This document shows, one piece after another, positions 7,695 to 26,303 of a DNA stretch of 42,471 nt. Within the stretch, counting starts at the first letter, position 1. Each line of letters opens with the position of its first letter. The translations under genes were made by a program, and so were the position numbers. The DNA lies in assembly GCA_018693315.1 (NCBI GenBank), contig JABHLR010000008.1, positions 1 to 42,471 on the forward strand, read 5' to 3'. The DNA comes from an archaeon. GTDB taxonomy: Archaea > Nanobdellota > Nanobdellia > Pacearchaeales > GW2011-AR1. Below the pieces are notes generated by a model. The model was not told where the DNA came from and did not search any database. It was given only the letters and a program-made list of their open reading frames with translations.

Positions 7695-7702
7695 TTTTTA
7701 AG
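7695..7702 (-). promoter_or_regulatory. TATA element for alaS
   Basis: On the minus strand CTTAAAAA begins 29 nt before the alaS ATG. It overlaps the last codons of the upstream Lrp gene, so alaS can be transcribed independently. Confidence 0.45.
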
Positions 7703-8684
7703 GTTTGTTAAGCTTTAGCAAATTGTCGAATCCGGGGGTCCATTCGTCGGTTATCATTAGGACGGTGTCGACTGTTCGGATTACGTTTGGGAATTCTTTT
7801 TTTAGGTTTTCTAGAATCTCGTAATATTCTTGGTAGCTTTCGACGATTAGTTCTGGTTCTAGCTGCCACATGTTTCGGATGAAATATTGGATGTTTGGAA
7901 TTCTTGATAAGTGGTCTAGAAATTTTTGCTCGTCTTCTTTGCTATATCTATCTAGTTTGATTATTGCTTTGTAGAGCTCTAGCCCTAATTCGTTTAGGTC
8001 GACGCCGATTCGGTATTGAATTATTATTCCGTTTTGTTCTAGTCTTTTTAATCTGGTTTGGATTGTTTGGATTGTTGCTTTGGTTTTTGTTGAGAGATCG
8101 ACTAGTGAAATTCTCGCATTATTTACGACTTCTTTGATGATGCTCGAATCTAGTTCGTCTATTTTGTTATCTTCCATTTCTCCTGCGAACATTGTTGGCT
8201 CTTCTGTTTTATTTGTGAAATACATTTTTGGATATTGTTTGACGTCTACTAGGATCTGACCTTCTTCTTCTACAAGTATTTTGTTGAATTTTGAGATTAG
8301 TTCGTTTTTTAGTTCGAAGAATTCCATGTCGCTTTTGCAGAAGTAACCGAAGATTAGGTCCCATGAACCGGAGCATTCTCCCATCCAGTAAACTTTTCCG
8401 GATGTTCTGAGGTATTTGAATAGCCTTTCTTTTTCTGCTGGAATATTTCTTAGGTTGAGATATATTTTGTAGAGCTTGTATCCCATTTTGTGGGGGTTGA
8501 TTGATGCTTGGAAACCTGTGATGATTCCTCTTTTGACCAGTTGGTTTATTCTGTAATCTACTGCCTGCCTTGATTTGCCGACTTTTTTCGCGAGCTGAGT
8601 TGATGGAATTCTGCAATTTTTGTCGAGTTCTGTTAAAATCTTTCTATCTATCTTGTCTAATTTTATTTTATTTATTTCTACCAT
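7698..8684 (-). CDS. Tandem-duplicated Lrp/AsnC-family transcription regulator (Lrp-1)
   Basis: A protein of about 328 residues made of two Lrp/AsnC units in a row, each a winged helix-turn-helix followed by a RAM-like ligand/oligomerisation domain. Unit 1 begins LDKIDRKILTELDKNC and unit 2 begins IDELDSSIIKEVVNNARISL. Canonical Lrp has one unit of about 150 residues, so one chain here may mimic a dimer. The start at 8684 (MVEINK) fits the TATA box at 8707-8714 better than the ATG at 8693. The gene is divergent from a radical SAM gene and is paralogous to the regulator at 13492-14460, which has the same arrangement. It probably represses itself and the radical SAM gene (inference). Confidence 0.93.
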   Translation of the reverse strand: MVEINKIKLDKIDRKILTELDKNCRIPSTQLAKKVGKSRQAVDYRINQLVKRGIITGFQASINPHKMGYKLYKIYLNLRNIPAEKERLFKYLRTSGKVYWMGECSGSWDLIFGYFCKSDMEFFELKNELISKFNKILVEEEGQILVDVKQYPKMYFTNKTEEPTMFAGEMEDNKIDELDSSIIKEVVNNARISLVDLSTKTKATIQTIQTRLKRLEQNGIIIQYRIGVDLNELGLELYKAIIKLDRYSKEDEQKFLDHLSRIPNIQYFIRNMWQLEPELIVESYQEYYEILENLKKEFPNVIRTVDTVLMITDEWTPGFDNLLKLNKP

Positions 8685-8685
8685 A

Positions 8686-8733
8686 CTTGGCATATATTGT
8701 TTTTTCTTTATAAATATTGTGGTTTATGCCAAG
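8686..8733. promoter_or_regulatory. Candidate Lrp operator: inverted repeat flanking the Lrp-1 TATA box
   Basis: CTTGGCAT (8686-8693) and ATGCCAAG (8726-8733) are perfect inverted copies. Their dyad centre falls within 1 bp of the centre of TTTATAAA (8707-8714), the TATA box of the Lrp-1 gene. The arms are 40 bp apart centre to centre, about four helical turns. A smaller palindrome, CCAAGAATTTGG (8729-8740), overlaps the distal arm. Confidence 0.5.
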
Positions 8734-8782
8734 AATTTGGTGGAAACTTTGATATAGGTATATGACTATATGTTATTACAAT

Positions 8783-8808
8783 AGAGGGACAACAAAGACC
8801 TCTAAGGA
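8783..8808 (+). promoter_or_regulatory. Leader of radical SAM gene 1 with Shine-Dalgarno site
   Basis: AAGGA (8804-8808) sits 9 nt before the ATG at 8818. AGAGG (8783-8787) can pair with CCTCT (8799-8803). No TATA box lies at the 29-nt position, so this gene, unlike most neighbours, seems to have a real 5' leader. Confidence 0.4.
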
Positions 8809-8817
8809 AAATAAAAA

Positions 8818-10188
8818 ATGACACAAGAAAAATATGAGACAAAGTTCCCAGTAACTTTCGAGGGCGAGGTTAGCAATGGATGGACTAATGGAGTAAAGAA
8901 TTGGCACATTCGAAATGCTACGCCTGGATTGTTCACGCTGGATTTGGAGCATATTGCAAATGACTTGGTTGAATTGCATAATGATCCGGGCAATGAGGAA
9001 AGTGTGGAATCGATGTATTATGGTAAGGTTTGTGCGCATAAGTGTAAATCTTGTTTTAATGAAGAGAGAGGAGTTTACAGTAAGGAGATTTACGATTTGG
9101 ACAAGAAAGCTGTCCTGGATGATGAGGGTAATGCTAAGTTGAATAGGTTGATGACTCTTGAGGATACTGTTAATGTGGTTGATCAGGCTATTGAGATAGC
9201 TGCGGAAGAGGGACATGATTTTAAGAGTGTTAAGTTTCTTGGGCCTGGTGAGCTGTTGATGAATCCTCAGTTGTTCGATATTATTGACGCGTATAAAGCT
9301 AGAGGGGTGCAGTTGAATATTTTCACGAAAGGGGCATTACTTGGAAGTGATGAGTTGGCTCAGAAATACCAGGGGATGAATGCTAAGGAATTGACGGACA
9401 GATTGGCGAGTTGTGATAATGTTGGGTTGCTTATGTCTTTCCAGTCGTTTGATGGAGAGAGGCAGAATGATCTTGTTACGAGCAAGGATGAGAATGGTGA
9501 AACTGTGGGTCTTCAGGGCTATTCTCAAATTAGAGAACAGACTCTTGAGAATATGTTTGGCTCGGAATTATATAAGAATGGGATGACGAATAGGGTTTGT
9601 ATGATTAATGCGCCGATTGTTCCTGAAAATGTTGATGAATCTTTTTATATCTATAAGTTCTTTATTGAAAGAGGTACTCCTATAGTCATGACTCCGTCTA
9701 TGGTTAGTGGTAAGGGTTGTGGGCAGTACGAGAGGCAAAAGGAGATTATGACTATGGAAGACTGGCATGAAAAGCTTGTGGGCTTGTATGCGAAGATTTA
9801 TGCGTTCAATGTTGAGAAGGGGATTCAAACGGATGAGCAGATAAAAGAGGAAGGGGTTGCATCTTATGTTGGGGCTGAGCCTTGTAATCAGGCATCTACG
9901 GGATTGTACATTAGAGGAAATGGGATTGTGCAGAGTTGTCCTGGAAGATTTGATAGCGAAACGGTTTATGCTAATGTTCAAGAAACTTCGCTAAAAGATA
10001 TTTGGATGAATTCTTCGAATAAGCAAAGAGGGATTGATGATCCTCAGAACTTGATTAACAATAAATGTCCTGCGAAGGATGAAAATGGTAGCACGGTTAA
10101 GTTTGAAGGTTGTGGATTTCCTCAAGACTTTTATGATAGAGTTATGAAAAAATATTCTGATTTAATGGGTGGAAGTGAAAATGAGTGA
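8818..10188 (+). CDS. Radical SAM enzyme with SPASM-like C-terminus
   Basis: A 456-residue radical SAM protein. Cys72, Cys76 and Cys79 form the CxxxCxxC motif (CAHKCKSC) for the SAM-binding 4Fe-4S cluster, and GPGE (142-145) fits the SAM-contact motif. The C-terminal part has Cys301, Cys356, Cys374, Cys417 and Cys432, a spacing that suggests one or two auxiliary clusters as in SPASM/twitch enzymes. Such enzymes modify peptides, proteins or carbohydrates; the substrate here is unknown. It is divergent from the tandem Lrp gene at 7698. A 10-codon frame (10181-10213) overlaps its stop. Confidence 0.92.
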   Translation: MTQEKYETKFPVTFEGEVSNGWTNGVKNWHIRNATPGLFTLDLEHIANDLVELHNDPGNEESVESMYYGKVCAHKCKSCFNEERGVYSKEIYDLDKKAVLDDEGNAKLNRLMTLEDTVNVVDQAIEIAAEEGHDFKSVKFLGPGELLMNPQLFDIIDAYKARGVQLNIFTKGALLGSDELAQKYQGMNAKELTDRLASCDNVGLLMSFQSFDGERQNDLVTSKDENGETVGLQGYSQIREQTLENMFGSELYKNGMTNRVCMINAPIVPENVDESFYIYKFFIERGTPIVMTPSMVSGKGCGQYERQKEIMTMEDWHEKLVGLYAKIYAFNVEKGIQTDEQIKEEGVASYVGAEPCNQASTGLYIRGNGIVQSCPGRFDSETVYANVQETSLKDIWMNSSNKQRGIDDPQNLINNKCPAKDENGSTVKFEGCGFPQDFYDRVMKKYSDLMGGSENE

Positions 10189-10219
10189 TGCAAAATTTTA
10201 CGCCGAGAGTTAATTCCGT

Positions 10220-10567
10220 CTAAGAGTTAAGCTCTCTTAACTTTTCCTGAATGGCTAGGAGTTCGTCTTCGATGTCGTCTCGTTTTGTGAATGTTTCTTT
10301 GGTTTCTTTCTCTTCTTTTTTCTTGACTACTTTTGGAACTTTTGGGGTTGGCATATTACCTTGGACTGAATCTATTTCCGAGAGTGTTGACGCGAAAAGT
10401 TTGTATAGTTTTTTCTTGAGGTCTTGTTTTTGTCGTGCTAGAATTTTTAGATGGTGTAATCTTTTTAGTGTTGTTAGTAAATCTGCCTGGCTCATTAGTA
10501 GATTAGATTTATTTTCTTTGTAAGAATCTGGTGAAAACGAGACATAGAGCTCTTCCTTTGAGGCCAT
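10220..10567 (-). CDS. Small coiled-coil protein, function unknown
   Basis: A 115-residue, charged and mostly helical protein. Residues 25-65 (LLTTLKRLHHLKILARQKQDLKKKLYKLF) and the last 25 (DDIEDELLAIQEKLRELN) have heptad-like patterns, joined by a Lys/Pro/Glu linker. No enzyme motif is visible. It follows the proline-rich gene at 10569 with a one-base gap and is surely co-transcribed with it, so the two products probably interact through their coiled coils (inference). Confidence 0.82.
   Translation of the reverse strand: MASKEELYVSFSPDSYKENKSNLLMSQADLLTTLKRLHHLKILARQKQDLKKKLYKLFASTLSEIDSVQGNMPTPKVPKVVKKKEEKETKETFTKRDDIEDELLAIQEKLRELNS
10225..10246 (+). terminator. Hairpin with T tract after radical SAM gene 1
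   Basis: AGTTAAG (10225-10231) and CTTAACT (10236-10242) form a 7-bp stem with loop CTCT, followed by T residues. It lies inside the last codons of the convergent gene, so it may serve the plus-strand transcript only. Confidence 0.4.
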
Positions 10568-10568
10568 G

Positions 10569-11153
10569 TTAAATCTGATTGAAGATATCTGAGTCTACTT
10601 CTGAAAGTCTTGATTTGATTTTTTCGATGTCTTCAGTCCAGCCTTTTAATTCTGTCTCTTCTTGTGACTTTACGTCTTTAATTTTTTTGAGAACTGATTC
10701 TATTTCTTTTACTTTTGTTTTTATTTTATCAAAGTTCTTTTGGGCTGATTGAAATTTGTCGATTCGTACGAAGATTGGTTCGGCTTCTCGAGTTTTTGGT
10801 TTTGGTGTTGTCGATGTTGATGGTGTGATTTCTAGCGTCTTTTTTGGAAGGTGTGGGATCACTTCGTTTGGAGAAGGTTTTGGAGGAACCATAATTGATT
10901 CCCCTTTTTCCTCTTCCTTCACATTGAGTCCTTCTGGGATTTCAACGTGTACCTCGTTTTCCTCAGGATTTGGTAAATCTGCAACTGCTGATTTTACCAT
11001 TTCTTGATTAAGATTTTCGTTCTTAGAATTTGCTGGGAATGATGGTAATTCTGGGAGATCTTTTTTTTCTGATTCTTCTAATTTTGGAAGAGTTGGCAAC
11101 GTTGGTGCCGGCGGAATTGTTGGCACGTCTTCTTTTTTACTAAATAATCCCAT
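10569..11153 (-). CDS. Proline-rich protein with C-terminal coiled coil, function unknown
   Basis: A 194-residue protein beginning MGLFSKKEDVP. A long low-complexity region rich in Pro, Glu, Lys and Thr (to about residue 120) is followed by EPIFVRIDKFQSAQ and a coiled coil (about 130-190). No signal peptide or membrane helix is present. I believe similar gene pairs occur in other DPANN genomes, but I cannot verify that here. It is the first gene of a two-gene operon with 10220-10567. Confidence 0.82.
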   Translation of the reverse strand: MGLFSKKEDVPTIPPAPTLPTLPKLEESEKKDLPELPSFPANSKNENLNQEMVKSAVADLPNPEENEVHVEIPEGLNVKEEEKGESIMVPPKPSPNEVIPHLPKKTLEITPSTSTTPKPKTREAEPIFVRIDKFQSAQKNFDKIKTKVKEIESVLKKIKDVKSQEETELKGWTEDIEKIKSRLSEVDSDIFNQI

Positions 11154-11174
11154 GGTATAGTTTAATCAATTTCT

Positions 11175-11182
11175 TTTTTATA
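11175..11182 (-). promoter_or_regulatory. TATA element for the coiled-coil operon
   Basis: Minus-strand TATAAAAA lies 29 nt before the ATG at 11153. Confidence 0.55.
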
Positions 11183-11236
11183 GGTTTATAGTAATTTTAA
11201 AGTTACGACAATGTCGAGGGATGATGCACGGAAAGG

Positions 11237-11244
11237 TATATAAA
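11237..11244 (+). promoter_or_regulatory. TATA element (with purine-rich BRE) for the TFE operon
   Basis: TATATAAA is preceded by GGAAAGG, a good BRE-like stretch, and lies 29 nt before the ATG at 11266. This rules out the ORF start at 11221, which is upstream of the promoter. Confidence 0.7.
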
Positions 11245-11265
11245 CGAAATTATTTTTTATTGTAC

Positions 11266-12150
11266 ATGCAAGTAAAACTTCTACATGATCTCGTCGAGGA
11301 AATGGCTGGTGAGAATACTGGGCGAATTGTTGATATCCTGTTTGGGAAAAAAGATGTTAATGAATTTTCGATTGCGAAAAAAATGGAGTTGACGATTAAT
11401 CAGGTTCGGAATATTTTGTATAAACTTTCTGCTGATGGTTTGGTTTCGTTTATTAGAAAGAAGGACAAGCGGAAGGGTTGGTATATTTATTATTGGACTT
11501 TGAAGACAGAGAAATGTTTGGTGAAGTTGGAGGGATCTTTGGTTAAGAAGATTGAGGGTTTCCGTGGTATTTTGGGGAGCCGGGAAACGCGACGATTTTA
11601 CACATGTCCATCTTGTGGTATTGAAGTTGGCGAGGAGAAGGCGTTGGAGCATGGGTTTAGTTGTGAGGAGTGTGCGGAGATTTATGAGTTGTCTGATAAT
11701 AGTCCTGCGATTCGAGAGACGAAATTTAGGATTAGTAGGACTCAAAAGAATTTGGAACTGATTCAGGGTGAGCTTGTGACTATTAGAGAAAAGGAAGCGA
11801 AGAGAAGGGCTAGGATAAATAAGAAGTTGGACAAGGAAGAGGCTGAGAGGAAGGCGTTGATGAAGATTGCTCGGGCGGCTGCTCGGAAGAAGGTTGCTGA
11901 GGCGAAGGCTAAGCTTGAGGGGAAGACGCTTGCAGTAAAGAAGAAAGTTAAGAAGACTGTTAAGAAAGTTAAGGGGAAAGTTGCGGCTAAGAAGAAGGTT
12001 GTTAAGAAGACTGTTAAGAAAGTTAAGGGGAAAGTTGTTAAGAAAGTTGCGGCTAAGAAGAAGATTGTTAAGAAAGTTGCTAAGAAGATTGTTAAGAAAA
12101 AGATTAGTTTGGCTGGTAGGTTAAAGAAGAAAATTTCTGGGAAGCGATGA
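11266..12150 (+). CDS. tfe: Transcription factor E alpha (TFE) with histone-H1-like lysine-rich tail
   Basis: A 294-residue homologue of archaeal TFE-alpha (TFIIE-alpha), which helps RNA polymerase open promoters. Residues 1-110 form the winged-helix domain (VNEFSIAKKMELTINQVRNILYKL). A zinc ribbon follows with Cys114, Cys117, Cys133 and Cys136. Typical archaeal TFE ends near residue 170-190; here a coiled segment (about 155-205) runs into roughly 90 residues made almost only of Lys, Val, Ala and Thr, in repeats such as VKKTVKKVKGKV, much like histone H1 or bacterial HU tails. The tail is encoded by direct DNA repeats. The stop overlaps the rhomboid start by 4 nt. Confidence 0.9.
   Translation: MQVKLLHDLVEEMAGENTGRIVDILFGKKDVNEFSIAKKMELTINQVRNILYKLSADGLVSFIRKKDKRKGWYIYYWTLKTEKCLVKLEGSLVKKIEGFRGILGSRETRRFYTCPSCGIEVGEEKALEHGFSCEECAEIYELSDNSPAIRETKFRISRTQKNLELIQGELVTIREKEAKRRARINKKLDKEEAERKALMKIARAAARKKVAEAKAKLEGKTLAVKKKVKKTVKKVKGKVAAKKKVVKKTVKKVKGKVVKKVAAKKKIVKKVAKKIVKKKISLAGRLKKKISGKR
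11947..12063 (+). repeat. Direct repeats encoding the TFE lysine tail
   Basis: A 37-nt sequence is identical at 11947-11983 and 12001-12037 (54-bp offset), and a 21-nt sequence is shared by 11977-11997 and 12043-12063. The repeats are in frame and suggest growth of the tail by slippage or unequal recombination. Confidence 0.9.
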
Positions 12151-12827
12151 TGGGCCGAGATGGATTTTTGTCTACTTATACCGGGTGGATAATTGCTGTT
12201 AATGTTGTATTTTTTATTGTGTTGACTTTTATGGGATTTGATCCTTTCGATTGTGCGGGAAGTGTTTGTAAGTATGTTGCTTTTCAGCCTGCCGCAATTT
12301 TAGCTGGTAGTTCTGTTTGGACTTTTTTGACGAGTATGTTTATGCACGCTGGACTTTTCCATTTGTTTGCGAACATGGTGTCGCTTATGTTTATTGGAAA
12401 TTTTATTGAGAAGCTGATTGGGAAGAAGCGGTTTATTTGGTTGTATTTTGTTGGTGGACTTTTTGCTGGTGTTTTATTTTTCGCTCTTGCTAATTTGTTT
12501 GGGAATAGTGCAACTGGTGCTATGTTTTTCGGGAATCCTATGATGTATGCCGTCGGTGCGAGTGGTGCGATTATGGCGCTTGGTGGTTTGCTTGCGGTCT
12601 TGACTCCGAGGTTGCCTGTTTTGGTTTTCTTTGTTTTACCGATGCCGATGTGGGCTGCGATGGGAGTTTTGATGTTTGGTCTTTGGGGGCTTTCGGTTGC
12701 GGCTGGGCTTCCGATTGGTAATGTTGCTCATCTTGGTGGATTGATTGTTGGGGTTGGATATGGGTTTTATTTGAAGAAGAAATTTCCGAGGAAAACTAAA
12801 ATGATTAGTACTTATTTTGCACGATGA
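12147..12827 (+). CDS. Rhomboid-family intramembrane serine protease
   Basis: A 226-residue polytopic protein with the rhomboid core: HAGLFHLFANM in helix 2 (His67, His72, Asn76), catalytic Ser139 in GASGA, and catalytic His195 in VAHLGG. About six membrane helices are visible. It cleaves membrane proteins within the bilayer; the substrate is unknown. It is the middle gene of a tightly overlapping operon (4-nt overlaps on both sides) with TFE and a SpoIIM-like protein. Confidence 0.94.
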   Translation: MMGRDGFLSTYTGWIIAVNVVFFIVLTFMGFDPFDCAGSVCKYVAFQPAAILAGSSVWTFLTSMFMHAGLFHLFANMVSLMFIGNFIEKLIGKKRFIWLYFVGGLFAGVLFFALANLFGNSATGAMFFGNPMMYAVGASGAIMALGGLLAVLTPRLPVLVFFVLPMPMWAAMGVLMFGLWGLSVAAGLPIGNVAHLGGLIVGVGYGFYLKKKFPRKTKMISTYFAR

Positions 12828-13405
12828 AGCGAGAGAATTTTTTTGTTAGGAATTATAAGTCGTGTTGGAAATTTTTTAATGAGAGCCGCTGGCATATGGT
12901 TTTTGCTTTGGGTTTTTTTATGCTTACATTTTTGATTGGATTTGTTTTCCCGATTTTTTTTAGAGAGGAAATTATTAACTTTATTAGTGAGTTGATTTTG
13001 TCGCTTGAGGGGCTGAGTGTTGCCGAATTAATTGTTTTTATCTTTTGGAATAATTTTAAGGCGAGTTTCTTCGCGATTATTTTGGGAATTACTGCTGGGC
13101 TCTTCCCGTTATTTATGTTGGTGACTAACGGTTATTTACTTGGGTTTGTCTCTAGGGCGGCTGTTGAAGTAGAGGGATTGTCTTCTCTGTGGAGGTTGTT
13201 GCCTCATGGAATTTTTGAGTTGCCTGCTGTTCTTTTTTCTCTTGGAATTGGATTTAAGATTGGGGGCGGAATGTTCAAGAAAGGCTTCAGGAATAATTTG
13301 AAATATAATTTTAAGGAAGGTTTGAGATTTTTTGTTTTTGTGATTTTTCCTTTGTTGTTGGTTGCTGGTATTATTGAGGGCCTCTTAGTAGGATTAATAA
13401 AATAG
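12824..13405 (+). CDS. SpoIIM-like (stage II sporulation protein M family) membrane protein
   Basis: A 193-residue membrane protein with about five helices and the family motif LPHGIFELPAVLFSLGIGFKIG. In bacteria SpoIIM is part of an engulfment complex, but the family is widespread in archaea, which do not sporulate, so the role here is unknown. Its ATG overlaps the rhomboid stop (ATGA), so the two are translationally coupled; a link between protease and SpoIIM-like protein is an inference. Confidence 0.88.
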   Translation: MKRENFFVRNYKSCWKFFNESRWHMVFALGFFMLTFLIGFVFPIFFREEIINFISELILSLEGLSVAELIVFIFWNNFKASFFAIILGITAGLFPLFMLVTNGYLLGFVSRAAVEVEGLSSLWRLLPHGIFELPAVLFSLGIGFKIGGGMFKKGFRNNLKYNFKEGLRFFVFVIFPLLLVAGIIEGLLVGLIK

Positions 13406-13412
13406 CGGCCTA

Positions 13413-13457
13413 ATGTGATTGGAAATCACATCTCAAATTGGTTAAGCTTCACTTAAC
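13413..13457. terminator. Two hairpins between convergent genes
   Basis: ATGTGATT (13413-13420) and AATCACAT (13424-13431) form an 8-bp stem with loop GGA. GTTAAG (13441-13446) and CTTAAC (13452-13457) form a second stem. They lie between the SpoIIM-like gene and Lrp-2 and may end both transcripts. The second stem has the same arms as the hairpin at 10225-10242. Confidence 0.4.
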
Positions 13458-13491
13458 GCAATTGGCAAGGAATTTTGGTTGGGTTGATGAG

Positions 13492-14460
13492 TTAGAAGTA
13501 AACGAATTTGTGTTCTTTTGAGATTGTTATGATGTCGATGTTTTTTATTATGTCTGAGAATTTGTCTTTGATGTCTGTTAAGATTTTATTGAACTCTTCT
13601 TCTGATGTGACTTCGAATTCTGGTTCTAAATCCCAGTTACTGATTACCTTTACGTGATGGATTACGTTTTTATGTTGTTTAAGATATTGGGTTAATTCTT
13701 GAATTTTGGTTTTTTCTGGATTGTCGAGATAGACGAAGCCTTTGTAGAATTGGATTCCGAGTTTTTCGTAGTTGATCGCGATTCGGAAGCCTTGGATTAG
13801 TTTTAATTTTATCATTTGTTTAATTCGGTAGGCTATGATTCTTGCCGTTGTGTTTAGTTCTGTTGCGATGTCGACTGCGGACTTTCTTGCGTTTTCGCTT
13901 AGTTGTTTTAGGATTTTTATGTCGATGTCTTCTAGGTCAATTTTTTCCGAGGAATCGAGAAGGGTTTTTTCTTCCGAGTTTTGTTCGTCTAAGATAAAGC
14001 TTCTGCTGCAAACTGATGCTCGCGAACTTATTGATATTGCTTTTTTTGAAACGAATCCGGAAAATGCGCTCAAAACTTCGTTTTTTAATGAATCTATATT
14101 TGCTACCGAATCTGTTTCTAGGGCTGCAACTAGATCCCACGCTCCATTGCAAGAAACTAGCCATTTGACATTTTTGTTTTCTTTTAATTTGGATATTTTT
14201 TTCTCTAGCTCCCCTGAAGTAATATGCTGGAATGATAATAAGACCCTAAATTGTATTACTCCTAGCTTCGAAAGATTTAGAGCTACTTGATATTGGGTGA
14301 TTATTTTTTCTTGCTCTAGTCTTTTGATCCGGTAGCTTACGACTTCGGTTGAGAGGCCGACTTTTTTTGCGATTGTTGAATTTGGTTGTCTGCAATCTTT
14401 GTCTAGTTCTGAAAGTATCTTTCTGTCCTTTAGATCTAATCCAAATGTTTTTTCCTTCAT
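13492..14460 (-). CDS. Tandem-duplicated Lrp/AsnC-family transcription regulator (Lrp-2)
   Basis: A 322-residue paralogue of the regulator at 7698-8684, again two winged-helix plus RAM-like units. Unit 1 starts LDLKDRKILSELDKDC and has IAKKVGLSTEVVSYRIKRL as its DNA-binding helix pair. Unit 2 starts IDLEDIDIKILKQLSENARK. The two paralogues share the unit-1 layout and the closing segment (D...EFNKILTDIKDKF against YEILENLKKEF). It is divergent from the B12-type radical SAM gene, with 118 bp between, and has its own TATA box. It probably regulates that gene (inference). Confidence 0.93.
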   Translation of the reverse strand: MKEKTFGLDLKDRKILSELDKDCRQPNSTIAKKVGLSTEVVSYRIKRLEQEKIITQYQVALNLSKLGVIQFRVLLSFQHITSGELEKKISKLKENKNVKWLVSCNGAWDLVAALETDSVANIDSLKNEVLSAFSGFVSKKAISISSRASVCSRSFILDEQNSEEKTLLDSSEKIDLEDIDIKILKQLSENARKSAVDIATELNTTARIIAYRIKQMIKLKLIQGFRIAINYEKLGIQFYKGFVYLDNPEKTKIQELTQYLKQHKNVIHHVKVISNWDLEPEFEVTSEEEFNKILTDIKDKFSDIIKNIDIITISKEHKFVYF

Positions 14461-14481
14461 ATTTAGTATTATTACACTTAT

Positions 14482-14489
14482 TATTTAAA
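14482..14489 (-). promoter_or_regulatory. TATA element for Lrp-2
   Basis: Minus-strand TTTAAATA begins 29 nt before the ATG at 14460. Confidence 0.55.
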
Positions 14490-14553
14490 TCTTGTCATTT
14501 TATTGCATTTTCTCATAAGATGTTTTAACTAGTGTTTTGCCTTGATAATAGTA

Positions 14554-14569
14554 ACTCCTTGAAAGGGGT
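14554..14569 (+). promoter_or_regulatory. Leader hairpin containing the Shine-Dalgarno site of radical SAM gene 2
   Basis: ACTCCT (14554-14559), loop TGAA, AGGGGT (14564-14569) form a 6-bp stem with one T-G pair. The 3' arm is the Shine-Dalgarno sequence for the ATG at 14579, so folding would hide the ribosome site. A weak TATA-like TTTTAACT at 14523 would start the transcript almost at the hairpin. Confidence 0.45.
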
Positions 14570-14578
14570 AATAAGAAA

Positions 14579-16192
14579 ATGGATAGACAAAAAGAAAAAA
14601 ATGTTGAGAGAGAAAAGAAAAAGGTTATGTTTGTTAAGCCGCATTTGGAGACTGATGCAGTTTGGGATCCCATAAGAACGTGTCCTTATATCGGGGCGTG
14701 GTATATGACTTCTGGGCTTAAGGAACGTGGGCATGATGTGAAATACTTAGATGAAGTTACTCGGAATAACGGTCTAGAGAATAGGACTTTGTTTAGGAGG
14801 GATATGATTAATGGAGAAACAACCGAAACTCCTGTTGAAACTTCTTATGAGGATTTTCAGGCGCAAAAGATGGCGGACTATAGGTCTATGACCCCTGAGT
14901 CTTTTGTGGATAAATATTCTGCGTTTGGTGAAGATGGGGAAATTTCCAGAACAATGGTTCGGACTGGAAATGATCTTGAGGATACATTAAATGATATTGG
15001 CGATATGAATCCTGATGTTGTTGGGATTCCGTTGATTGCTACTGCCAATTATATTCCAGCGACAAAATTGGGCAGGGCTATTAAAGACAGGTTTCCTGAT
15101 GTAAAGGTTGTATTCGGTGGACAACATATCTCTGCGGATCCTGAGGGTTTTTTGAGAGATAATGATTATGTTGATCAGGTTGTTTCCGGGGATGCTATTT
15201 CGGCCATGACTGACATAGCTGAGGGTAGGAATAATGATAAAATTGTTTATGGTGGATTTAGAAATTTTGACGAATTCCCGTTGCTTGACCCTTCGATTAT
15301 TGAGGGGAACGATTATCCTGACGAGCCGATTCATACTTATCCTACTGATGGAAGGAAGAGTGTAGATTATATGTTTTCTAAAGGGTGTTTTAGGCGGTGT
15401 GATTTTTGTGTTGCTGGAAGTCAGGAAGGGAATCACGTAACTCCGATTGATTATGATATGGTTGATGAACAGTTGCGTATATTTAAGAAAAATGGTATTG
15501 AAGAACTTGTGATCCAGGATGATGCTTACCTTTGGGATAAGAATCATGTTCGGGAACATTTGCCTAAGTTGCTGGGGCTTATGAAGAAGCATGGGATGTA
15601 TTGGCAAAATAATGGTGGGATGGAATTTGAAATGATGGATGATTTTGTTACCGAAGAGATCTTGAAATATAATTCGTCTGGAGAGGGTCGTGCTACTTCT
15701 TTGTATGTTCCGTTTAACCCGCGTACTTGGAATAAGGGACAGAGTGTTTCCGGAACCATGTCTGAAAGATATCATGCGAATTTGGATAATTTGAAAAAAT
15801 TGAAGGATGCTGGGGTGTTTGTTTTCACTAGTGGAATTATTGGTACTCCTGAGCAGACTAGAGAAACTATTGATGAAGATATTGAGATGAATAAGAAATT
15901 GATTGAAGAGGGATATCTTAGCTCTGCACTTTCTCTTTCAGCTACGATGCTTCCTGCGACTAAATGGTATGATTCTAATGGCCATAATATTGTAGATAAA
16001 GAAGATTATGCTGGATTCTCGTTGTTTACTACGCATCATAGTACTCCGCACATGTCTCCTAGAGATATTGAAACTTCAATGATTCGTTGGAGTCAGGAAC
16101 TTGACAAAGTTCAGACTACTTACAAATGGGGAACTGGGTTTCCTAGTGCTGAGAATGGTAGTAATCAAGATTTGAAAAGGGGTGATGAATAA
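14579..16192 (+). CDS. B12-binding-domain radical SAM protein
   Basis: A 537-residue protein with an N-terminal cobalamin-binding-like Rossmann domain (about 15-215; YIGAWYMTSGLKERGHDV, DVVGIPLIATANY, VFGGQH) and a radical SAM barrel with CxxxCxxC at Cys270, Cys274 and Cys277 (CFRRCDFC). This class includes methyltransferases acting on unactivated carbon and other unusual C-C chemistry; the substrate is not predictable. It has a leader with hairpin and Shine-Dalgarno site, is divergent from Lrp-2, and is followed at once by a small gene whose Shine-Dalgarno site is within its last codons. Confidence 0.93.
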   Translation: MDRQKEKNVEREKKKVMFVKPHLETDAVWDPIRTCPYIGAWYMTSGLKERGHDVKYLDEVTRNNGLENRTLFRRDMINGETTETPVETSYEDFQAQKMADYRSMTPESFVDKYSAFGEDGEISRTMVRTGNDLEDTLNDIGDMNPDVVGIPLIATANYIPATKLGRAIKDRFPDVKVVFGGQHISADPEGFLRDNDYVDQVVSGDAISAMTDIAEGRNNDKIVYGGFRNFDEFPLLDPSIIEGNDYPDEPIHTYPTDGRKSVDYMFSKGCFRRCDFCVAGSQEGNHVTPIDYDMVDEQLRIFKKNGIEELVIQDDAYLWDKNHVREHLPKLLGLMKKHGMYWQNNGGMEFEMMDDFVTEEILKYNSSGEGRATSLYVPFNPRTWNKGQSVSGTMSERYHANLDNLKKLKDAGVFVFTSGIIGTPEQTRETIDEDIEMNKKLIEEGYLSSALSLSATMLPATKWYDSNGHNIVDKEDYAGFSLFTTHHSTPHMSPRDIETSMIRWSQELDKVQTTYKWGTGFPSAENGSNQDLKRGDE

Positions 16193-16193
16193 T

Positions 16194-16586
16194 ATGGGAG
16201 ATAAATTAGAACATATGGAACATGATTTTGATAAAAAGAGTGTTTTTCTTGGAGCTGACCGGGCGGTGGCTTGGCTTAAGAACAGAAGCAATAAGGCATC
16301 CCTTTGTACAACTTTTGGATCAAAGGGGGAATCTAGTCAATTGATGCCTACGACATTCGCAGAAACTACTACTTGTTATGATGTTGCTGAGAAAATAGCA
16401 GAGAAATTAGATGATGGAAAGAAGGTTGCTTCGAGTGTTGGACTCGACAAATATGGTGATATCTATCTGCGTGTAATGGTCGGCCCGGGATATGTGCCAA
16501 ACGATAGGAATTTGATGAATGGATACGGAGCTACGGAAGCTTATGAGGTGCGTACTCACTCTAGCCGTTCTATGACTAATTGGTAA
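16194..16586 (+). CDS. Small protein coupled to the B12 radical SAM gene, function unknown
   Basis: A 130-residue protein with no recognised domain. The start at 16194 is supported by AGGGGTGAT just upstream, a near-perfect match to the archaeal anti-Shine-Dalgarno; upstream GTG (16182) and ATG (16185) are part of that signal. The fold looks alpha/beta (VFLGADRAVAWLKN, YDVAEKIAEKLDDGKKVASSVGL, DIYLRVMVGPGYVPND). Two Cys (in SLCTTF and TTCYDV) and a Ser/Thr/Arg-rich tail are notable. Being one base pair past the radical SAM stop, it is probably translated with it as partner, substrate carrier or regulator (inference). Confidence 0.87.
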   Translation: MGDKLEHMEHDFDKKSVFLGADRAVAWLKNRSNKASLCTTFGSKGESSQLMPTTFAETTTCYDVAEKIAEKLDDGKKVASSVGLDKYGDIYLRVMVGPGYVPNDRNLMNGYGATEAYEVRTHSSRSMTNW

Positions 16587-25780: not shown

Positions 25781-25839
25781 TTATTTATTATTTTGGTTGC
25801 GAGGTTGTTGTAACTTAGTAGTAGTTAATTATAGAAAGG

Positions 25840-25868: not shown

Positions 25869-26303
25869 ATGACAACAGCAATTGCTAGGGCGTATACTGG
25901 AAGAGGACTTGATGTTGAAGGTATTTCTATTTTTGATACTGCTGATATTGATGAGGCACCTAATATTGCTAGTATTAGAGTTTATGGTCATGGCAAGGAT
26001 CCTGAGAATGGTGATAATATTGTGTTGCATAGTCGGGATAAGAAGTATGCGTTTTTGGTAAGTTTGGGGCATGGTGTGGCAACTATTCACGACCCTAGTA
26101 TTCATGAAGGTAAGCATAATTCGTGGAATGGTTTGGGTGGTGCTATGTATAGTTTTGACAGATGTGGTTCTGGAGGTCCGGTAAAGCGTGTCGGAAATTG
26201 GTTTGATATGACTTTGCATGCCGATGCAGACAATATTCCTTATTGTACTCCCGAGAGACTCAGAAGGGACTTGAAAAATACTAATAGATCTCATTTGTTG
26301 TAG
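25869..26303 (+). CDS. Protein of unknown function
   Basis: A 144-residue soluble protein rich in Asp, Gly and His. It looks mostly beta-stranded (ASIRVYGHG, DNIVLHSRDKKYAFLVSLGHGVATIHD) with a conserved-looking core SWNGLGGAMYSFDRCGSGGP. His and Asp residues could bind a metal, but no known motif is visible. It has its own promoter and no informative neighbour. Confidence 0.75.
   Translation: MTTAIARAYTGRGLDVEGISIFDTADIDEAPNIASIRVYGHGKDPENGDNIVLHSRDKKYAFLVSLGHGVATIHDPSIHEGKHNSWNGLGGAMYSFDRCGSGGPVKRVGNWFDMTLHADADNIPYCTPERLRRDLKNTNRSHLL

Follow-up and report, generated by a model that had tools for sequence, protein, structure and literature searches.

Two tandem-duplicated Lrp/AsnC regulators, each divergent from a gene for a radical SAM enzyme, are located within 9 kb of each other in the window, i.e. 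the whole stretch of 42,471 nt that was analysed, which belongs to a 674 kb archaeal genome of 87% completeness. The question raised by this locus is whether the two modules serve one modification pathway, as linked steps or as two inputs governed by related sensors, which an earlier note on this DNA had proposed, or have separate functions but share the design of their switch. Both divergent pairs were confirmed, with open reading frames exactly where that note had placed them (Table 1). Gene calls were made mechanically and the genomes are incomplete, which applies to all counts of loci and families given here.

Table 1. Features of the two tandem-Lrp modules (positions in the window).
Feature	Position	Strand	Remarks
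Tandem Lrp regulator 1	7698..8693	-	331 aa; two HTH and two RAM-like units
Shared divergent promoter region 1	8694..8817		124 bp gap
Operator-like site TTATTACAATAGAGGGA	8773..8789	+	degenerate; centre ~87 bp from Lrp start codon
Inverted repeat AGAGG...CCTCT	8783..8803	+	hairpin of the earlier note; followed by SD-like AAGGA; not seen in relatives
Cargo 1, SPASM-type radical SAM enzyme	8818..10188	+	456 aa
Tandem Lrp regulator 2	13492..14460	-	322 aa
Shared divergent promoter region 2	14461..14578		118 bp gap
Operator-like site TTGCCTTGATAATAGTAA	14537..14554	+	imperfect; canonical place
Inverted repeat ACTCC-TTGAAA-GGGGT	14554..14569	+	hairpin of the earlier note
Cargo 2, B12-binding radical SAM enzyme	14579..16192	+	537 aa
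ORF directly behind cargo 2	16194..16586	+	130 aa; accounts for the end coordinate 16586 of the earlier note

The two enzymes are of different classes, as had been claimed, and both keep a CX3CX2C motif. For cargo 1, Pfam matches to SPASM (6.5e-6) and Radical_SAM (3.7e-4) were obtained, the SPASM domain PF13186 scoring 26.8 bits at a cut-off of 21.5, and the motif is formed by C72, C76 and C79, which are invariant among relatives. Like the SPASM/twitch radical SAM maturases, to which weak matches were found (W_rSAM_matur, NirJ1), the enzyme combines CX3CX2C with a C-terminal SPASM-like domain, but none of the curated models of this class reaches its cut-off (26 bits vs at least 380). No precursor-peptide gene was recognised beside it. 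Cargo 2 matches B12-binding (7e-15) and Radical_SAM (7.5e-9), and the cysteines of its motif, C270, C274 and C277, are likewise invariant. It shares the B12-binding domain and the radical SAM core with B12-binding radical SAM methyltransferases (HpnJ, Sden_1168 and KedN5 relatives), but belongs to a rare family below the cut-offs of the curated subfamilies (best HpnJ, 53.8 vs 577.6 bits).

In the searched set, the SPASM family of cargo 1 was found in 10 archaeal genomes and the B12-binding family in 3, the source genome included in both cases. Apart from the latter, orthologues of cargo 2 (59-61% identity) occur in the order sample in G010 and G051 only, and both face the same divergent tandem Lrp. 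The pairing with a tandem Lrp is conserved in the B12-binding family (3/3) and in 8 of the 10 SPASM genomes: a tandem Lrp lies alongside in G049, G125, G055, G256, G281, G282 and G200, with one short gene in between in G055 and G200, and is absent from the stretch read in G237 and G158. Named relatives of cargo 2 belong to a Ca. Pacearchaeota MAG, a Nanoarchaeota MAG and one MAG labelled Buchananbacteria. The orthologue at L073:176-1750 (51% identity) comes from a contig that carries the label Ca. Buchananbacteria (CPR bacteria), reflecting either cross-domain transfer or misbinning. In G051, an aRF1-like release factor gene with an apparent intein (L013:1-1464) adjoins the B12-binding enzyme. 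The 130-aa ORF behind cargo 2 is probably coupled to it. It had no match in the 131 other genomes of the order and is also missing beside the two closest orthologues of cargo 2, and was rejected as a conserved partner.

Each regulator gave two HTH_AsnC/HTH_24 matches (PF13404 at 1e-21 and 1e-22, above the cut-off), while the RAM domain stayed below the cut-off of Pfam PF01037 and was recognised by fold: the AlphaFold2 model of regulator 2 (pLDDT 95.8) contains two Lrp units per chain, and its halves resemble Lrp structures with TMt values of up to 0.88. HTH and RAM fold are common to these proteins and to archaeal Lrp/AsnC (FFRP) regulators such as P. furiosus LrpA, S. solfataricus LysM and P. 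horikoshii FL11. The latter, however, are single units of ~150 aa that form dimers or higher oligomers, whereas two units are fused in each chain of the window regulators, which are therefore classed as an Lrp/AsnC variant.

Two fused Lrp-like units in a chain of ~320 aa are also present in the siroheme decarboxylase NirDL (PDB 4ch7), and in a Foldseek search with the whole chain of the regulator 2 model this tandem fusion was the top match (4ch7/4czc, E 1e-13, TM 0.62). Together with the weak NirJ1 match of the SPASM cargo, this would fit an enzyme of the NirDL type working with a radical SAM partner, as in NirDL/NirJ or AhbAB/AhbCD. NirDL, however, shares 12% identity with the regulator, and the single halves of the model fit Lrp regulators (TMt 0.88) better than AhbA/B (0.54-0.56). 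In sequence profile comparisons, archaeal Lrp structures were best with 92 bits vs 29 bits for NirDL, and the Ahb-type siroheme decarboxylase models remained far below their cut-offs (20-30 bits vs 125-140). Moreover, strongly retained HTH domains, the lack of radical SAM enzymes in three quarters of the modules and a palindrome at the cargo start speak against such an enzyme. Based on the profile scores and the fold of the halves, this reading was rejected as extremely improbable.

A search with the regulator profile found tandem Lrps in 66 of 132 genomes of the order and in 149 of 279 genomes of the phylum, and about 100 loci of the order were fetched for counts of layout and cargo. A divergent upstream neighbour was found for 100 of 103 tandem Lrps compared to 120 of 380 other genes of these loci, and a gap of 70-150 bp for 79/103 compared to 48/380. 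Divergence is therefore the rule throughout the family, beyond chance. It had been noted for the two pairs of the window and applies to ~130 tandem Lrps, most of which face cargo other than a radical SAM enzyme. Within their genome, the window's two modules are two of five copies of a widespread and apparently undescribed cassette, so that they most likely resemble each other through a common design of the switch rather than as successive steps in one pathway. Divergent local Lrp regulators are already known in archaea (PMC2995911). No paper was found on tandem-Lrp cassettes in DPANN archaea, nor on these archaea together with Lrp or radical SAM, in a literature search whose coverage was incomplete and which is hence no proof.

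The cargo of the family is diverse. According to Pfam, the first cargo genes (n=102) comprise 19 radical SAM enzymes, 5 methyltransferases, 3 polyprenyl synthetase-like, 2 HD and 2 periplasmic-binding proteins as well as many singletons, with single cases of ThiF, Asn synthase, homoserine dehydrogenase, queuosine salvage, SAM synthetase C-domain and others. When class-level loci were added and entire operons considered, a radical SAM gene was present in 31 of 128 modules, compared to six PF04055 matches in the whole source genome; radical SAM enzymes are therefore enriched, yet the majority of the cargo is of other kinds. Cargo is also exchanged between close regulators. Among 174 regulator pairs with at least 45% identity, 133 have no homologous cargo, and regulators of 91% identity face a B12-binding radical SAM enzyme in L181/L182 and an unrelated 202-aa protein in L183. 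L182 and L183 are similar in DNA sequence from the Lrp gene up to and including the two TATA boxes, and the similarity declines around the start of the cargo. Against entirely free exchange, radical SAM cargo is not randomly distributed on the regulator tree (131 rows, a quick tree with SH-aLRT support only): the label changes 21 times vs a shuffled mean of 29.4, and none of 500 shufflings was as low. Radical SAM cargo is thus clustered yet often changed, and some clades hold one cargo type.

The patchy presence inside one genus and the small variable cargo proteins would also suit an accessory system of toxin, defence or viral origin in which the tandem Lrp guards harmful or antiviral cargo, and PADLOC matched cargo proteins to viperin-like and E1-like models. 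Viperin matches, however, are about as frequent in this set as matches to many other models of radical SAM enzymes, no toxin family is among the top cargo Pfam families, and viral contigs searched with the regulator alignment contained no relative, which argues against a viral origin. A defence role found no specific support from PADLOC and was rejected; we consider this origin highly unlikely.

With respect to a common pathway of the two window enzymes, the regulators are indeed paralogous (30% identity to each other), and the description as related sensors is justified insofar as both fall within one large tandem-Lrp family. They belong, however, to different supported clades. The clade of regulator 1, which is 74% identical to its relative in G049, consists of five regulators that all face SPASM radical SAM enzymes; that of regulator 2 consists of nine, five rows of which have other cargo, and its nearest relative (63% identity) faces a 75-aa protein that is not a radical SAM enzyme. 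The location of both modules within 9 kb would favour a common pathway, but five modules in 674 kb give, by the author's rough estimate, a chance of ~0.15 that some pair lies this close, which is near chance, and the two modules are separated by genes of other kinds (TFE-alpha, rhomboid, two unknowns and a member of the SpoIIM family). In favour of a link, a tandem Lrp of G100 is divergent from a cargo operon that contains a B12-binding together with a second radical SAM enzyme (L103:1427-3923), which shows that the two classes can be combined in a single operon. Within the source genome, the cargo of all five modules includes SAM-dependent enzymes: besides cargos 1 and 2, a SPASM radical SAM enzyme with a 69-aa membrane-like peptide in the third, a methyltransferase in the fifth, and in the C7 module a methyltransferase paired with a B12-binding ORF that is truncated at the end of the contig, a pairing that also speaks for a link. 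Among the searched genomes, however, the B12-binding (3 genomes) and SPASM (10) families occur together only in the source genome. By the test that the earlier note had set, the idea of a common pathway therefore fails and loses its support, although both families are rare and this test is weak. Taken together, it is quite unlikely that the two enzymes act in one pathway.

A TATA box is present at about -29 in many genes of the window, which therefore look leaderless, as does the gene of regulator 1 with a TATA box at about 8707-8714. Both enzyme genes lack such a box, and they had been described as exceptions with a leader, a Shine-Dalgarno (SD) site and a potential hairpin. The leaders stand, and the first has an SD-like AGGA; the SD site of the second is weak. 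Within the family they are no exceptions: about half of the family's cargo genes are leadered, and an SD-like site was found in 19 of 41 of these vs 1 of 43 leaderless cargo genes, so that this form is common in the family. As a conserved leader element, SD site plus hairpin was rejected, being absent from orthologues; the element in common is a palindrome at the start site. The intergenic regions of the family have a TATA box for the leaderless Lrp gene and a cargo TATA box at a near-fixed distance, and the palindromic motif TTACTAttaaaTAGTAA was obtained by EM with a log-likelihood gain of 173, compared to 21-34 in ten dinucleotide-shuffled sets. The family palindrome reads TTACTA-N5-TAGTAA, and spaced dyads TACT-N7-AGTA were counted in 8 regions vs 0.18 expected. 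Relative to the Lrp start codon, the best sites mostly lie at a distance of 82-95 bp, and relative to the cargo TATA box 22-38 bp downstream; they therefore cover the expected transcription start. The position weight matrix (PWM) gave 45 matches in ~2,000 canonical positions vs 119 in 756 kb elsewhere, an enrichment that is partly circular since the matrix was trained on the same intergenic regions; the comparison of EM with shuffled sets is not circular.

Near-consensus sites were found in orthologous modules, namely TTACCATTTAACAGTAA in L071 (B12-binding) and TTACCATTATATAGTAA in L080 (SPASM). The window's own two operator-like sites are degenerate with weak scores, each no better than chance when taken alone; positions 14538-14554 have 3 mismatches to the family palindrome, and such matches arise by chance. 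A relaxed operator pattern was uninformative in the source genome, with 277 matches per strand vs 419 for the reversed control. The strongest PWM match in the window, TAACTTAGTAGTAGTTA at 25811-25827, precedes the TATA box of a gene that begins at 25869 and has no neighbouring tandem Lrp; it is either a trans target or a chance match.

From the anatomy of the modules, the family size, the divergence rule, the diversity and exchange of cargo and the operator motif at the start site, all observed by computation, we infer DNA binding, repression, a ligand and a pseudo-dimer on the DNA. The tandem Lrp is likely a local repressor of divergent, exchangeable cargo in cassettes of Pacearchaeota-type DPANN archaea, the window's two cargos having separate functions. 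In such a cassette, a leaderless tandem-Lrp gene is divergent from a highly variable cargo, either a single gene or a small operon, across a stereotyped intergenic region of mostly ~90-125 bp, and one chain would form an intramolecular pseudo-dimer, probably contacting both half-sites of the palindrome. RNA polymerase or the initiation complex would be blocked at the cargo transcription start, and a small amino acid-like ligand in the RAM domains may relieve or strengthen this repression. Cargo has been replaced many times, with regulator and core promoter staying in place, and the two window enzymes would most likely act separately. Perhaps the ligand is related to methionine or SAM, a post-hoc hint taken from the SAM-dependent enzymes in all five cargos of the source genome.

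For archaeal Lrp/AsnC local regulators, amino-acid ligands are known, and a roadblock or promoter occlusion has been proposed (PMC2995911). As in the cassettes, LrpA, LysM and FL11 adjoin their targets, with divergent layouts known and palindromic sites near the target (PMC2995911). Unlike these, the tandem Lrps form a large family whose close members face non-homologous cargo, with an operator-like TTACTA-N5-TAGTAA over the cargo start. Little work has been devoted to gene regulation in DPANN archaea, and the family rule predicts the controlling regulator and its binding place for many unknown genes. Moreover, it marks the cargo, including many radical SAM enzymes and small unknown proteins, as condition-dependent accessory functions, and regulatory evolution by exchange of the target gene under a retained regulator is unusual.

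A class-wide network appears rather unlikely, in which hundreds of DPANN tandem-Lrp cassettes with a common operator and possible cross-talk would switch on an exchangeable set of modification genes, radical SAM- and SAM-dependent, with small peptide genes next to some of them (e.g. L088, L075), by one ligand (e.g. methionine or SAM) for exchange with, or action on, host cells. In the third module of the source genome, at L075:4667-6186 (G000:C1, ~81.7-83.2 kb of the contig, outside the window), a tandem Lrp is followed by an ORF of 69 aa, basic at its start and hydrophobic in the middle, and then by a SPASM radical SAM gene, possibly a precursor and maturase pair. At L088:4591-6000, an 81-aa cargo with an internal repeat (NPVELVNNMYGCHP / NPVEVVNNIYGCHP) precedes a strong SPASM radical SAM gene, which makes this a candidate archaeal peptide natural product locus.
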